NCBI GenBank assembly: GCA_937891825.1
Contig: CALAHN010000136.1
Coordinates: 1-64,000, forward strand
Length of the DNA stretch: 64,000 nucleotides
Origin: an uncultured Alphaproteobacteria bacterium
GTDB taxonomy: Bacteria > Pseudomonadota > Alphaproteobacteria > Bin95
Direction of reading: 5' to 3'
Under the pieces are notes generated by a model. That model saw nothing but the letters and a program-made list of their open reading frames with translations, ran no database searches and had not been told where the DNA came from. A program made the position numbers and the translations under genes. Of the stretch, positions 9,522-21,133 are shown piece by piece (position 1 is the first letter of the stretch; each line of letters begins with the position of its first letter).

Positions 9522-10976
9522 CTAACCCCGGATCGGTTTCGCCACCGGCACGCTGCCGCGGTCGCCGGAAGCCGACCAGCCGGCGATGATGCCGGAGAAC
9601 ATGCCGGCGCCGCCGCCTGCGCGGACCAGCATCAGGCCGCCGTCCCGGAATTTCTTCACGGTCTTGCCGCGCATGCCGACGCCCAGGCCCTCGGCGATGC
9701 CGTCTTCGCCCTGGATCAGGGGATCGGCCGGGCCGGTGGTCAACGCGGTCAGGCGCGCCAGGAGATCGGCCTTCGACCACCCGGCCGCCTTGAAGGTGCG
9801 TTCATGTTCCGGGCAAACGACGAGGATCGCGTCGGCGGCGGGCCAGGCTTTGACATTGTTGATCGCCTTCAAGCTTGCCGCCATCGACCGGGCGAGGCTT
9901 TCCGGCTCGCGGCTTTTCTGATCGACGACGCCCTGCAGGCCGTAACCGGCGAAAGCCGTCACGACATTGTCGCCCGCCTTGAAGCCGAAATCGGTCGCGA
10001 GCGGCGTCCAGATGGAGCCGGCTTCGTCTTCGCAGAAGCAATAGGAGAGCTTGCCCGGATTGCCGAGCGCCGCGCGGTCGATGCCGCCCGGCTTGCCGCC
10101 GCCGACATTGCGCACGATCAACTGCACCGCACGACCAATGGTCAGGTTGGCGCGGTTGCCCTGGCCGAGCGCATTGTGCTTGCCGTTCATGCCGATGCGC
10201 TGGGCGATCGGGCCGTTCACGATCAGCACCGGCCCGACATACATCGTCGTCGCAAGCACGCCGTGGATGTTGAAGGCCGGATCGAGCACTGCTTCGAGCG
10301 CCGCCAGCACGACCGGGAAATACTCAGGCTTGCACCCGGCCATGACCGCATTGATCGCGGCTTTCTCGACCGAGCAGGGATCGAGGTTCGGGGGCACGAT
10401 GCCGACGATCTCGTCCGCCGCCCTGGACGTTCCTTCCAGCATGGCGAGCACGCGGGCTTCCGTCGGCGGGGTGACAGGCAGGCCGTCGGACCAGCCGCGC
10501 TCGAACGCCGCTTCGATCGGGTCCTCGGCGCTGCCGAGATCGATGCGCCGGGCATTGAGCCCGGTCTCGCCATAGCGGATCCTGAGCAGTCGGTTGGCCG
10601 CCGGTTCGACATTGGCGGCGCCGCAGCCGGGCCGGGTCGGCGGCAGGTCGAGGCCGACGGGCTGGCCCGCGACGCGCGCCCATTCCGCCCGGTCCCAGCC
10701 ATATGTCCGGTCGACTTCCCGCCCGCCTTCGACCCGAACCAGCGTCGGCACGATTTCGACGTTGAGGCGGTAGGAGGCGTCGAGGTCGCGGTCGTCGCGG
10801 ACGGCCTTGACCGCTTCCGGGAAGGTCGGGTCGTCCTGGCTGTAGACCGTGACGGCGCCGCTCGCCTGCAAGCCCGCGAGGACCGGGCCGACCAGATCGC
10901 AGGTCGGGCAATCCCGCTTGACGACCGCGATCAGGCCGTCGCCCGCCGCGCTGAAAATCGATGCCGCATCCGCCAT
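9522..10976 (-). CDS. Thioredoxin-like domain fused to a large domain of unknown function
   Basis: 484 residues from the ATG at 10976, which has a GGAG ribosome site 8 nt upstream; an ATG 60 nt earlier lacks one. Residues 1-~115 look thioredoxin-like: VVKRDCPTC puts a CxxC at 23-26, followed by a helix and a cis-Pro-like VPTLVR strand. The remaining ~360 residues include ERGWSDGLPVTPPTE, NAVMAGCKPEYFPVV and YVGPVLIVNGPIAQRIGMN. I recall this domain from proteins that sit beside, or are annotated with, the 'UGSC (seleno)protein' family, but I cannot verify that and no reaction is known to me. Soluble, no signal peptide. A redox role through CPTC is inference. Confidence 0.7.
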   Translation of the reverse strand: MADAASIFSAAGDGLIAVVKRDCPTCDLVGPVLAGLQASGAVTVYSQDDPTFPEAVKAVRDDRDLDASYRLNVEIVPTLVRVEGGREVDRTYGWDRAEWARVAGQPVGLDLPPTRPGCGAANVEPAANRLLRIRYGETGLNARRIDLGSAEDPIEAAFERGWSDGLPVTPPTEARVLAMLEGTSRAADEIVGIVPPNLDPCSVEKAAINAVMAGCKPEYFPVVLAALEAVLDPAFNIHGVLATTMYVGPVLIVNGPIAQRIGMNGKHNALGQGNRANLTIGRAVQLIVRNVGGGKPGGIDRAALGNPGKLSYCFCEDEAGSIWTPLATDFGFKAGDNVVTAFAGYGLQGVVDQKSREPESLARSMAASLKAINNVKAWPAADAILVVCPEHERTFKAAGWSKADLLARLTALTTGPADPLIQGEDGIAEGLGVGMRGKTVKKFRDGGLMLVRAGGGAGMFSGIIAGWSASGDRGSVPVAKPIRG

Positions 10977-17420: not shown

Positions 17421-19085
17421 ATGACCCTCGTCGTCGATCCGATCACCACGTCCGTCATCCAGCACCGGCTGACCGCCATCGTCGAGGAAATGGGCGAGGC
17501 GATGCTGCGCACCTCCTATTCCCAGATCCTGAATTCCAGCCGGGATTTTTCAGCCGCCATCGTCGACCGGGATTGCCAGTTGGCGGCTCAGGCGGAGCAT
17601 ATTCCCGTCCATGTCGGCGCCATGCCCTGGGCTGCCAAGGCGGTGTCGGACTACTTCGGCGACGACGTGCATCCGGGCGATCTGTTCCTGGTCAACGATC
17701 CCTATCTCGGCTTCGGCAGCCACCTGCCGGATGTGACGGTGTTCGCGCCGGTATTCGTCGAAGGCGAGGTCGCGTTCTGGACGATCAACCGCGCCCATCA
17801 CAGCGACATCGGCGGATCGACCCACGGCGCCTATAACCCGTCGGCCACGGAAATCTTCCATGAGGGGCTGCGCATCCCGCCGCTTCGCCTCTGGGACAAG
17901 GGCAAGCCGAAGCGGGACCTGCTCGACATGCTGGCGGCGAACGTCCGCCATCCCCGCGATTTCAAGGGCGATCTCGCGGCGCAGATCGGCTCGGTCAAGC
18001 TCGGCGAGCGCCGGCTGGAAGCGCTGGTCGCAAGCTTCGGGGCCGAAGTGACCCTCCAGGCCTGCCGGCAGATCCTCGACGGCGCCGAGCGTCAGGCCCG
18101 CGCCGAGATCGAGACCTGGAAGGACGGCGTCTACCACGGCGAAGCGGCGCTCGATGACGACGGCCACGGCCGCCACGACATCACGATCCGCGCGACCGTC
18201 ACGGTCAAAGGCTCCGACGTCGAGGTCGATCTGACGGCGTCCGACCCCGAGAGCACGGCGTTCGTGAATTCCTCCTTCGCCAACATGCGCTCGGCCTGCG
18301 CGCAGACGCTGGCCTATCTGATCGATCCCTCGATCCCGAAGAACGCCGGCGCCTTCCGGCCGCTCACTGTCAAGGCGAAGCGCGGCACCATCGTCTGGGC
18401 GAACGACGGCCTGCCGGTCACGATGTGCACCAGCCATTGCTCCAACGAAATCATCGAGGCGATCATCGTGGCGCTCGCCGGCGCGTGCCCGGACAAGGCG
18501 ATGGGCGGATGGGGCCGACGCTTGCGGATCGCGATCAAGGGCGAGGACCCGCGCAACGGCAAGACCTTCATCTGGCACATGTTCCATGCCCGCCCTGGCG
18601 GCGGGGCGTCGCCGGGCGGCGACGGCTGGCACAATTCCGGCGAATGGCATTCGGCGGGCGGCTTGAAGTTCGGCAGCGTCGAGGTCGCGGAAGCGCGCTT
18701 CCCGCTGCATTTCCGCCGCCATGAATTCCGCCCGGATTCCGGCGGCGACGGCCAATATCGCGGCGGCGCGGGGGTGGATATGGAAATGGTGGTCGAGACG
18801 GAAAAGCCCGCCGTCGCCAACACCGCCGGCGACGGCCTGCGCCACGGCGCGCGCGGCATCCTTGGCGGCGCCGATGGCGCGCCGCACGATTATCGCCAGC
18901 AAAGCGCCGATGGGCGGGAGATCAAGTTGCCAAGCAAGGCGACGGGCCTGCCGGTCGCGCCGGGCGATGTCTTCATCGTCCATTCAGGCGGCGGCGGCGG
19001 CTGGGGCGACCCGGCAAAGCGCACGGCGGCGGCCCATGCGGCCGACCGCGCCGACGGTTTCGTCGTCGCCGGGGGGAAAGCCTGA
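17421..19085 (+). CDS. hyuB: Hydantoinase B / oxoprolinase family subunit
   Basis: 554 residues from the ATG at 17421 (TTGGAG ribosome site 6 nt upstream). Typical HyuB features: an N-terminal TTSVIQHRLTAIVEEMGEA helix, a HIPVHVGAMPWA segment, PGDLFLVNDPYLG and the Gly-rich C-terminal VHSGGGGGWGDP. Together with HyuA it forms ATP-dependent enzymes such as N-methylhydantoinase, 5-oxoprolinase or acetophenone/acetone carboxylases, which hydrolyse or carboxylate via a phosphorylated intermediate. The stop overlaps the HyuA start by 1 nt (TGATG). The precise reaction cannot be told from either subunit alone. Confidence 0.9.
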   Translation: MTLVVDPITTSVIQHRLTAIVEEMGEAMLRTSYSQILNSSRDFSAAIVDRDCQLAAQAEHIPVHVGAMPWAAKAVSDYFGDDVHPGDLFLVNDPYLGFGSHLPDVTVFAPVFVEGEVAFWTINRAHHSDIGGSTHGAYNPSATEIFHEGLRIPPLRLWDKGKPKRDLLDMLAANVRHPRDFKGDLAAQIGSVKLGERRLEALVASFGAEVTLQACRQILDGAERQARAEIETWKDGVYHGEAALDDDGHGRHDITIRATVTVKGSDVEVDLTASDPESTAFVNSSFANMRSACAQTLAYLIDPSIPKNAGAFRPLTVKAKRGTIVWANDGLPVTMCTSHCSNEIIEAIIVALAGACPDKAMGGWGRRLRIAIKGEDPRNGKTFIWHMFHARPGGGASPGGDGWHNSGEWHSAGGLKFGSVEVAEARFPLHFRRHEFRPDSGGDGQYRGGAGVDMEMVVETEKPAVANTAGDGLRHGARGILGGADGAPHDYRQQSADGREIKLPSKATGLPVAPGDVFIVHSGGGGGWGDPAKRTAAAHAADRADGFVVAGGKA

Positions 19086-21133
19086 TGTTCAAGATCGGCA
19101 TAGACGTCGGCGGGACGTTCACGGACCTCGTCGCGGTTGACCCCAAGGGCGCCGTGACGCTCGCCAAGGCGGCGTCGACGCCCGAGGATCAGTCCATCGG
19201 CGTGATGGACGGGCTGGCGCGACTGGCGGAACGGCTCGGCCTCGATCTTCCTGGCCTGTTCGGCCAGACGGAGCGGATCGTCCATGGCGCGACGGTCGCG
19301 ACCAACGCGCTGCTGGAGCGCAAGGGCGCCAAGGTCGGCCTGCTGACGACCGAAGGCCACCGGGATGTCCTGGAGATGCGCGAGGGCCTGAAGCCCGACC
19401 GCTACAATCTCCGCATGCCGCCGACGCCGCCCCTGATCCCGCGCCGGCGGCGGCTCGGCGTCAAGGAACGGATGCGGCCGGATGGCGCGATCGAGATCGC
19501 GCTGGATCAAGGCTCCCTCGACGCGGCGATCCAGACGCTGCGGGCGGAAGGCGTCGATTCGGTCGCGATCTGCTACCTGCATGCCTACAAGGACCCGGTC
19601 CACGAGCGCGCCAGCGCCGCCGCCGTCACGGCCGCCCTGCCGAACGCCTATGTGACGATTTCGTCGGACGTGCTGCCGCAGATCAAGGAATTCGAGCGGG
19701 TCTCGACGACCGCGGTCAACGCCTATGTCGGCCCGGCGGTCGGCCGCTATCTCTCCAATCTGGAGACGCGCCTCCAGGATGCCGGCTATAGCGGGCCGGT
19801 CCTGATCATCCTGTCCCACGGCGGCGTCGCGCCGGTCCGGGATACGGTCAGGCTCGCGGCTGGAACGGTGCTGTCCGGCCCGGCCGGCGGCGTCGCGGGC
19901 GCACGGCGTTCGGCGGCGCTCCTGGGCGCGCCGGACCTCATCCCGTTCGACATGGGCGGCACCTCGACCGACATCTCCCTGATCTCCGGCGGCGAGGCCG
20001 CGCTCTCATCGGACCGCGGCGTCGCGGGCGAGCGGGTGGCGTTGCCGTCGCTCGATATCGTCTCGATCGCGTCCGGCGGCGGCTCGATCGCGCGGGTCGA
20101 TCCGGGCGGCGTCCTGCATGTCGGCCCGGAAAGCGCCGGCGCCCAGCCGGGTCCCGCCTGCTACGGACGGGGCGGCACGGAGCCGACAGTGACCGACGCC
20201 AGCGTCGTCTTAGGCTTGCTGGATGCGGAGAACTTCCTCGGCGGCGCCGTGAAACTGGACAAGGCGGCGGCCGAGCGCGCCATCGACGGCCTCGCGTCGA
20301 CGCTTGGCGTCGACCGGATGACGGCGGCCGAAGGCGTGCATCGGGTCATCAACACGACGATGGCGGAAGGCGTGCGCCTGGTCTCCGTCCGGCGCGGCGT
20401 CGATCCGCGCAGGTTCGCGCTCCTCTCCTTCGGCGGCGCCGCCGGCGTCCACATCACGGAAATCGCGCGGGGGCTGGAGGTGCGTCGGGTGTTCGCGCCG
20501 CGCGTCGCCTCGGTGCTGTCGGCCTGGGGCATGCTCGCGACGGACCTCCGGTTCGAAGCGTCCCGCAGCCATATCGGCGATGCGGGCGCGCTCGACGCCG
20601 GGGCCTTGCGCGCGCTCTTCGCGGACCTGGACGCGCTGGCGCGGGCCAGGCTCGCCAAGGCCGGTTTTACCGGCGCCGTCGAGGTGCGCCCCTCCGCCGA
20701 CATGCGCTACGGCGAGCAGATCTTCGAGATCGACGTCAACCTGACCGGCCTGGATTTCCACGCGGCCGACCTGATGGACCAGTTGGCGGCGCGCTTCCAT
20801 GCCCGGCATGAGGAGCTTTTCACCTATTGCCTGCCGGATCAGGGGCCGGTGCTGGTCAACGCCCGCGCCGCCGCCATCGGCATCCTGCCGGAACTGCCGC
20901 AGGAGCCCTCGGCGCCGGCGGGCGACCCGGCGCCGGCGCGCGGGTCGCGGTCGATCTTCATGAACGGCGCTCCGGTCGATGCGCCGGTCTACGATTTCGA
21001 CGCGCTCGCCCCCGGCCAGCAGATCGACGGCCCGGCCGTCGTCGAGTCGGAGACCACGACCGTCGTGCTGCGTCCGGGCGACCGGGCGACGACGACGCCG
21101 TTCCGGTGGCTCGATATCGCCGTCGGTCAATAA
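19085..21133 (+). CDS. hyuA: Hydantoinase A / oxoprolinase family subunit
   Basis: 682 residues. The N-terminus MFKIGIDVGGTFTDLVAVD is the ATP-binding ASKHA phosphate-1 loop; ILSHGGVAPV and FDMGGTSTDISLISGG follow in the second half of the actin-like core, and an LLSFGGAAGVH segment near 460 matches the family. It phosphorylates the substrate for the partner subunit encoded immediately upstream. The downstream deacetylase gene starts 23 nt later, so a three-gene operon is likely. Length and domain order are as in N-methylhydantoinase HyuA and the alpha subunits of acetophenone carboxylase. Substrate not determinable. Confidence 0.9.
   Translation: MFKIGIDVGGTFTDLVAVDPKGAVTLAKAASTPEDQSIGVMDGLARLAERLGLDLPGLFGQTERIVHGATVATNALLERKGAKVGLLTTEGHRDVLEMREGLKPDRYNLRMPPTPPLIPRRRRLGVKERMRPDGAIEIALDQGSLDAAIQTLRAEGVDSVAICYLHAYKDPVHERASAAAVTAALPNAYVTISSDVLPQIKEFERVSTTAVNAYVGPAVGRYLSNLETRLQDAGYSGPVLIILSHGGVAPVRDTVRLAAGTVLSGPAGGVAGARRSAALLGAPDLIPFDMGGTSTDISLISGGEAALSSDRGVAGERVALPSLDIVSIASGGGSIARVDPGGVLHVGPESAGAQPGPACYGRGGTEPTVTDASVVLGLLDAENFLGGAVKLDKAAAERAIDGLASTLGVDRMTAAEGVHRVINTTMAEGVRLVSVRRGVDPRRFALLSFGGAAGVHITEIARGLEVRRVFAPRVASVLSAWGMLATDLRFEASRSHIGDAGALDAGALRALFADLDALARARLAKAGFTGAVEVRPSADMRYGEQIFEIDVNLTGLDFHAADLMDQLAARFHARHEELFTYCLPDQGPVLVNARAAAIGILPELPQEPSAPAGDPAPARGSRSIFMNGAPVDAPVYDFDALAPGQQIDGPAVVESETTTVVLRPGDRATTTPFRWLDIAVGQ

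Follow-up and report, generated by a model that had tools for sequence, protein, structure and literature searches.

Our analysis revealed that the protein encoded at positions 9522-10976 of the window (the whole stretch of DNA analysed, 64,000 nucleotides) belongs to a family that is very likely the partner of UGSC (PF24696 / NF041046). The two families share the same genomes and the same operons, and sometimes the same polypeptide. We lean towards a reductase that depends on selenocysteine, with UGSC (PF24696) as one subunit and the window protein, fused to thioredoxin, as the large one. The partnership is carried by the genomics; the chemistry and the substrate of UGSC and of the C-terminal domain of the window protein (C-domain) we infer. 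The question of function becomes testable now that UGSC has a near-obligate partner, a probable source of electrons and remote kin in PrdB of D-proline reductase and GrdB of glycine reductase (PF07355).

UGSC was reported in a 2008 ocean survey as fused to a conserved domain, Unknown_1, and a thioredoxin-like fold was guessed for it (PMC2398784). Unknown_1 is likely the C-domain described here; in contrast to the present account, the survey passages on UGSC and Unknown_1 do not mention the thioredoxin fusion, the operon or a mechanism (PMC2398784). UGSC is named in a 2026 review, which describes what such families do as largely uncharacterised (PMC13188914). Our literature search, whose coverage left aside preprints and most subscription papers, found no functional study of UGSC.

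The gene and its two domains

The frame at 9522-10976 shows coding-like codon use, its product shares 51-67% identity with the best 80 of 580 confirmed relatives, and another genome of the genus carries an orthologue (79% across 472 residues of a translated match), all of which indicates a real gene and not a chance frame. The open frame reaches 11036, and the first residues of relatives agree with a start at 10976. The best 80 of the 580 represent the window protein's own thioredoxin-fused clade rather than the whole family. A sequence-only reading had described the frame, the CPTC and several further motifs, and all of them are present in the translation; its coordinates stand, and the strand, which it had left unsaid, is minus. 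In the 484-residue protein the motifs fall at residues 23-26 (CPTC), 162-173 (WSDGLPVTPPTE), 213-215 (AGC), 253-264 (VNGPIAQRIGMN) and 313-315 (CFC). The features are as follows.

9522-10976, minus strand: gene for the thioredoxin-C-domain protein, 484 aa; ATG at 10976, stop codon 9522-9524
10662-10976, minus strand: N-terminal thioredoxin-fold domain, residues 1-105 (AlphaFold2 pLDDT 93, structure match and profile matches)
10899-10910, minus strand: CPTC redox motif, residues 23-26 (from sequence; CxTC in 77/80 relatives)
10620-10628, minus strand: GCG (C118) in the linker, near-invariant in the thioredoxin-fused alignment
9525-10529, minus strand: C-domain, about residues 150-484, the UGSC partner domain; no Pfam/NCBIfam family
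10458-10493, minus strand: WSDGLPVTPPTE motif, residues 162-173; D164, G165 and P167 in 163/163 C-domains
10332-10340, minus strand: AGC motif; C215 in 159/163, a candidate active-site cysteine
10185-10220, minus strand: VNGPIAQRIGMN motif, residues 253-264; G255 in 163/163
10029-10040, minus strand: C313-x-x-E316; C313 in 153/163 and E316 in 163/163, candidate active-site cysteine and acid

The AlphaFold2 model of the whole protein is confident (mean pLDDT 93.1, pTM 0.89), residues 106-484 included. Residues 1-105 of the model adopt a thioredoxin fold (VIA-align; best match 3ios, Z 9.8, 104 residues aligned, rmsd 2.6), with the CxxC where a helix begins behind the first strand (C23-C26; strand 14-19, helix 24-28). 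A profile of 81 relatives gave weak matches to solved thioredoxins over this part (best E 0.0011), and in Pfam it stays below the gathering cut-offs (Thioredoxin_2 13 bits versus 27, TraF 15.6 versus 23). The arm shares with thioredoxin the fold, the CxTC and a VPT conserved before the last strands, and differs from it in its covalent link to the C-domain, found in a single clade. The thioredoxin-like N-terminus with CPTC proposed from the sequence is thus a true thioredoxin fold, and its motif is conserved in the thioredoxin-fused clade. The exceptions among the best 80 are L097 and L102, which are devoid of the thioredoxin domain, and L067, in which the motif is missing. A quick tree was built from 112 of the 163 C-domain rows; in it, the thioredoxin-fused proteins make up 43 of the 44 rows of one clade with support 100, which points to one fusion event; the arm is absent from 69 of the 112 rows.

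The C-domain matched no family in Pfam or NCBIfam profile scans, and thus no characterised one, in agreement with the earlier view that the second domain has no assigned reaction. Foldseek searches of the thioredoxin-containing model against the PDB and viral models returned, among the matches listed, only thioredoxin-domain hits. Plasmid-borne C-domains from Roseovarius, Arthrobacter, haloarchaea and others are annotated as hypothetical proteins, and UGSC adjoins several of them. Among the 163 distinct C-domains (of 192 matches), D164, G165, P167, G214, G255, R282 and E316 are invariant, and together with C215 and C313 these residues are candidates for the active site, judging from conservation. 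The cysteine motifs emphasised earlier hold in part: the cysteine of AGC and the first one of CFC are kept widely, whereas Ala commonly replaces the last cysteine of CFC (consensus FCFAEDE), the GCG is near-invariant only in the aligned thioredoxin-fused set and the others named are not family-wide.

Partnership with UGSC

Of 289 Alphaproteobacteria genomes, 28 encode the C-domain, and these are precisely the 28 that encode UGSC (Fisher 1.5e-39, a value that ignores shared ancestry). UGSC lies within 300 nt of a C-domain gene in 67 of 76 cases in this set, always on the same strand, with the C-domain first in 45 of these close pairs and UGSC first in 22; the other 9 of the 76 have no C-domain within that distance. 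Conversely, 24 of 91 C-domains have no UGSC within 300 nt, many of them being tandem second copies. The link is specific, since the PF07355 selenoprotein family, present in 31 of the 289 genomes, shares only 20 with the 28 of UGSC.

A similar arrangement was observed in the thioredoxin-fused clade, whose hosts belong to Pseudomonadota, Actinomycetota, Chloroflexota, Acidobacteriota, Myxococcota and others. Among the best 80 of 580 relatives, a same-strand UGSC is found in 79 loci, in 77 of them within 265 nt downstream; in two of the remaining loci it lies 3.9 and 4.9 kb away, and in one the contig ends. Furthermore, in six of six fused clusters checked, a single frame spans UGSC and the C-domain; its one TGA falls in the UGSC motif, and it contains no further stop. 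The window protein itself does not match the UGSC profiles (PF24696 / NF041046), which makes it a partner and not a member, that is, the other subunit. The association with UGSC put forward in the earlier reading is correct and very strong.

Selenocysteine in UGSC

A single TGA interrupts 75 of 76 UGSC matches in the 289 Alphaproteobacteria genomes, and U stands in the UGSC motif of all 78 untruncated UGSC proteins encoded at the best 80 of 580 loci. A tRNA-Sec was detected with 71.5 bits. After the TGA, the same six-pair hairpin can be formed in 39 of 39 UGSC genes (every second one of the 78), with 234 of 234 cells paired; one pair has changed on both sides, and slid controls reached 0-57%. 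The position of this hairpin resembles that of a bacterial SECIS. Comparative sequence evidence establishes the TGA of UGSC as a conserved, hairpin-backed selenocysteine codon. In the best 80 of 580 loci, selA adjoins the C-domain/UGSC pair in 7, and genes of selB type, named by sequence start only, are found in 8.

The UGSC proteins of haloarchaea (Natrinema), Arthrobacter, Roseovarius and Variovorax carry CGSC instead of UGSC, an exchange of Sec and Cys as expected of a catalytic residue. Two plasmid fusions, in Vibrio and Sporomusa, carry MGTS, with Met at the Sec/Cys position; not every member therefore depends on catalytic selenium, and in these two, possibly a different, selenium-free branch, the exchange speaks against chemistry by selenium or a thiol. 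Both (L205 of Vibrio europaeus and L206 of Sporomusa termitida) adjoin aconitase X/DUF126 genes.

The window copy and its probable cognate UGSC

Seven C-domain genes and five UGSC genes (NF041046/PF24696) are encoded in the window's genome. All five UGSC proteins match PF24696 with 106-185 bits versus a cut-off of 25, each with one in-frame TGA. Those on contigs C4, C112 and C104 adjoin a C-domain gene, that on C12 lies 88 nt upstream of one, and the fifth stands alone (G000:C72:35787-36284). No UGSC was found beside the window copy. The window C-domain is closest to those at loci L031-L037, all with UGSC downstream, and the lone UGSC on C72 is closest to the UGSC genes of L031-L036 (59-66% identity). 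As an internal control, both members of the C4 pair point to a different set, with L087-L101 among the best. Since the window C-domain and the C72 UGSC share their nearest loci and the same split recurs in a second genome of the genus (G080:C14 and C146), we infer that the two are cognate, with their genes at separate sites. An adjacent UGSC has likely been lost from the window copy, and that on C72 is its likely partner.

These data bear on the possibility closest to the earlier view, namely that the redox enzyme is complete in the window protein itself, UGSC being no more than a gene often met in the same operon. The solitary position of the window copy and several others, and the C-domains in the Alphaproteobacteria that have no close UGSC, speak for it. 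The identical phyletic distribution of the two families, their fusions, and the lone C72 UGSC that mirrors the kinship of the window copy speak against it, and we regard it as very improbable; it was set aside in view of the distribution and the fusions. Because the most reactive residue, the selenocysteine, is on the separate UGSC protein, the window protein is probably not self-contained. Of the proposed new redox enzyme, the thioredoxin arm, the unmatched domain and the selenium link via UGSC are retained, while its self-sufficiency is unlikely.

UGSC fold and relation to PrdB/GrdB

The AlphaFold2 model of UGSC (pLDDT 94.1) has an alternating alpha/beta architecture in which Sec lies between strand 84-90 and helix 93-108. 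Its best solved matches are receiver- or flavodoxin-like, headed by 8s7v_H (Z 12.2, 131 residues aligned, 3.0 A), and many solved chains are found near Z 9-10. The model supports a flavodoxin-like fold with selenocysteine at the helix start. The thioredoxin fold guessed in 2008 is not supported by the model, with its alternating strands and helices; the 50 matches listed include no thioredoxin chain.

Profile-profile comparison (hhalign) of UGSC with a PrdB-type profile gave a score of 35.7 (P 1.2e-4, probability 55%); the two Sec positions coincide in the alignment, as does the ExxGIP element that follows. The highest score among sixty column-shuffled profiles was 20.8, and the reversed profile scored 13.1; these, rather than another Rossmann-like family, served as decoys. 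The UGSC profile comprised 96 rows (5 from the window's genome, 78 from the best-80 loci, 4 Cys forms and the 9 of 30 further loci that passed the filter). The PrdB profile comprised 17 of 32 PF07355 loci, read through one in-frame TGA; the others were lost to the frame rule or had no readable UxxC. A direct Pfam scan of the five UGSC proteins from the window's genome gave no PF07355 row at E up to 10, and the relation is therefore one of remote kinship and not of membership. The comparison supports UGSC as a remote relative of PrdB/GrdB subunits, judged by profiles; kinship to the Prd/Grd systems rests on this one result, as there is no direct match of UGSC to PF07355 or of the C-domain to PF09338. 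In both systems Sec belongs to a UxxC placed where a strand turns into a helix, and the partner subunit is separate. UGSC differs in being a 170-residue single domain with no direct PF07355 match, and its partner is not of the PF09338 type. The hosts of UGSC and the C-domain, from their taxa, we take to be largely aerobic rather than Stickland fermenters.

In glycine reductase, electrons are fed from NADPH through thioredoxin reductase and thioredoxin; the Sec of PrdB has been described as attacking the substrate carbon, and the pyruvoyl group of PrdA/GrdE derives from Cys (PMC3091704, PMC10298544). The system could accordingly be conceived as a true Stickland-type reductase, in which the C-domain acts as a functional GrdE/PrdA with a cysteine-derived pyruvoyl, e.g., from C215. 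We consider this improbable: the Sec-on-Sec profile match, the thioredoxin supply of glycine reductase and the Cys origin of the PrdA/GrdE pyruvoyl (PMC3091704, PMC10298544) are in its favour, whereas the C-domain has no PF09338 (GrdE/PrdA) match (E up to 1 for the window protein, up to 10 for five paralogues), C215 is missing in 4 of 163 C-domains and is followed in the model by helix H217-230. In hhalign, neither UGSC nor PrdB matched the profile of the window protein (scores 12.8 and 16.8).

Electron supply and gene neighbours

Genes for thioredoxin reductase accompany several clusters. The order trxB-trxA-Cdomain-UGSC was found in a row in Arthrobacter sp. ERGS1:01 and Cdomain-UGSC-trxB in Roseovarius THAF8, and trxB lies near the C-domain/UGSC pair in Variovorax SRS16. 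In total, trxB-like genes were found in 10 of 40 other clusters, at the C12 tandem of the window's genome and in 4 of the best 80 (of 580) thioredoxin-fused loci, and a separate trxA in only 1 of 134 loci scanned. The window's genome (4.3 Mb) has only two TrxB-like matches above 95 bits, one of them the C12 gene. Quite probably, UGSC and the C-domain together form a reductase fed by thioredoxin. The scarcity of trxA, and of trxB-like genes at the thioredoxin-fused loci, counts against this reading, as do the missing UGSC beside the window copy and the varied neighbours of the clusters.

The neighbours otherwise differ between clusters, and no single pathway context emerged among the top 25 families listed per tally (28 of 44 loci scanned for the non-thioredoxin clusters). 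Transporters, CoA-transferases and amidohydrolases, rather than stress genes, are frequent among the families listed. This bears on another explanation, namely a stress-defence enzyme of the thiol/selenol peroxidase or disulfide reductase type, in which the Sec of UGSC would reduce peroxides or disulfides, with the C-domain as scaffold and thioredoxin for recycling. Sec/Cys with thioredoxin wiring is typical of such systems, thiol oxidoreductases account for most selenoprotein families in one marine survey (PMC2398784), and a work cited in the literature has a peroxidase activity of GrdB as its title; however, these neighbours, the up to seven C-domain paralogues per genome, which suggest substrate diversity, and the non-thioredoxin fold of the UGSC model make the peroxidase or disulfide reductase unlikely.

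In the thioredoxin-fused clade, the neighbours included thiolase (10), alpha/beta hydrolase (8) and SelA (7) among 149 proteins scanned; thiolase, the commonest family, follows the pair in 10 of the best 80 (of 580) loci (e.g., L054, L056 and L067). A gene annotated as phosphosulfolactate synthase lies near the UGSC/C-domain pair on plasmids of Arthrobacter (L201) and Natrinema (L202); its presence in an actinobacterium and a haloarchaeon is a hint of organosulfur substrates. Organo-metal chemistry, which had also been proposed, was dropped: the neighbour families listed (top 25 per tally) include no mer-type gene and no other neighbour in its support.

Proposed mechanism

The reductase composed of UGSC and the C-domain may work like glycine/proline reductase, with the window protein as the subunit for substrate and electron transfer. 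Electrons would pass from NADPH to thioredoxin reductase and on to thioredoxin, which is built in within the thioredoxin-fused clade. The C-domain may bind and activate the substrate near the invariant D164, R282 and E316 and the cysteines C215 and C313. The selenolate of UGSC would then attack the substrate and cleave a bond between carbon and a heteroatom, in the way put forward for the glycine and D-proline reductases. The product would be released by the resolving cysteine, the last C of UGSC, and the CPTC would re-reduce the selenenyl-sulfide. Different C-domain paralogues, seven in the window's genome, might serve different substrates.

Bond cleavage of the Grd/Prd kind, drawn by analogy, is a plausible proposal that we put forward tentatively. 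With slightly more reserve, UGSC and the C-domain may make up a family of selenoenzymes that had gone unrecognised, fed by thioredoxin and related, in a minimal form, to the Stickland reductases; it would have moved into largely aerobic bacteria and, as a Cys form, into haloarchaea. Its many paralogous complexes per genome would each act on a different substrate by reductive carbon-heteroatom cleavage, the thioredoxin-fused clade carrying its own donor. If such chemistry holds true, an enzyme type known from strict anaerobes would be widespread in other bacteria and would reach archaea.

Further observations in the window and its genome

The window neighbourhood, with Rieske dioxygenase subunits, a zinc alcohol dehydrogenase and an EthD protein, looks catabolic, though it need not belong to the thioredoxin-C-domain gene. 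At 17421-21133 on the plus strand, near the opposite-strand Rieske dioxygenase genes, two lookalikes of hydantoinase B and A were recognised by eye. Elsewhere in the genome, a molybdopterin oxidoreductase gene lies directly upstream of a C-domain-UGSC pair (L016, 6655-10578, G000:C104). On C48 (L030), a PF07355 frame ends right after the profile match. The frames of two other PF07355 (PrdB-type) genes, at L028 and L029 (G000:C44 and C152), also break at a TGA that is followed by PxC (UPNC and UPVC), and the proteins at L028 and L029 are likely further selenoproteins.
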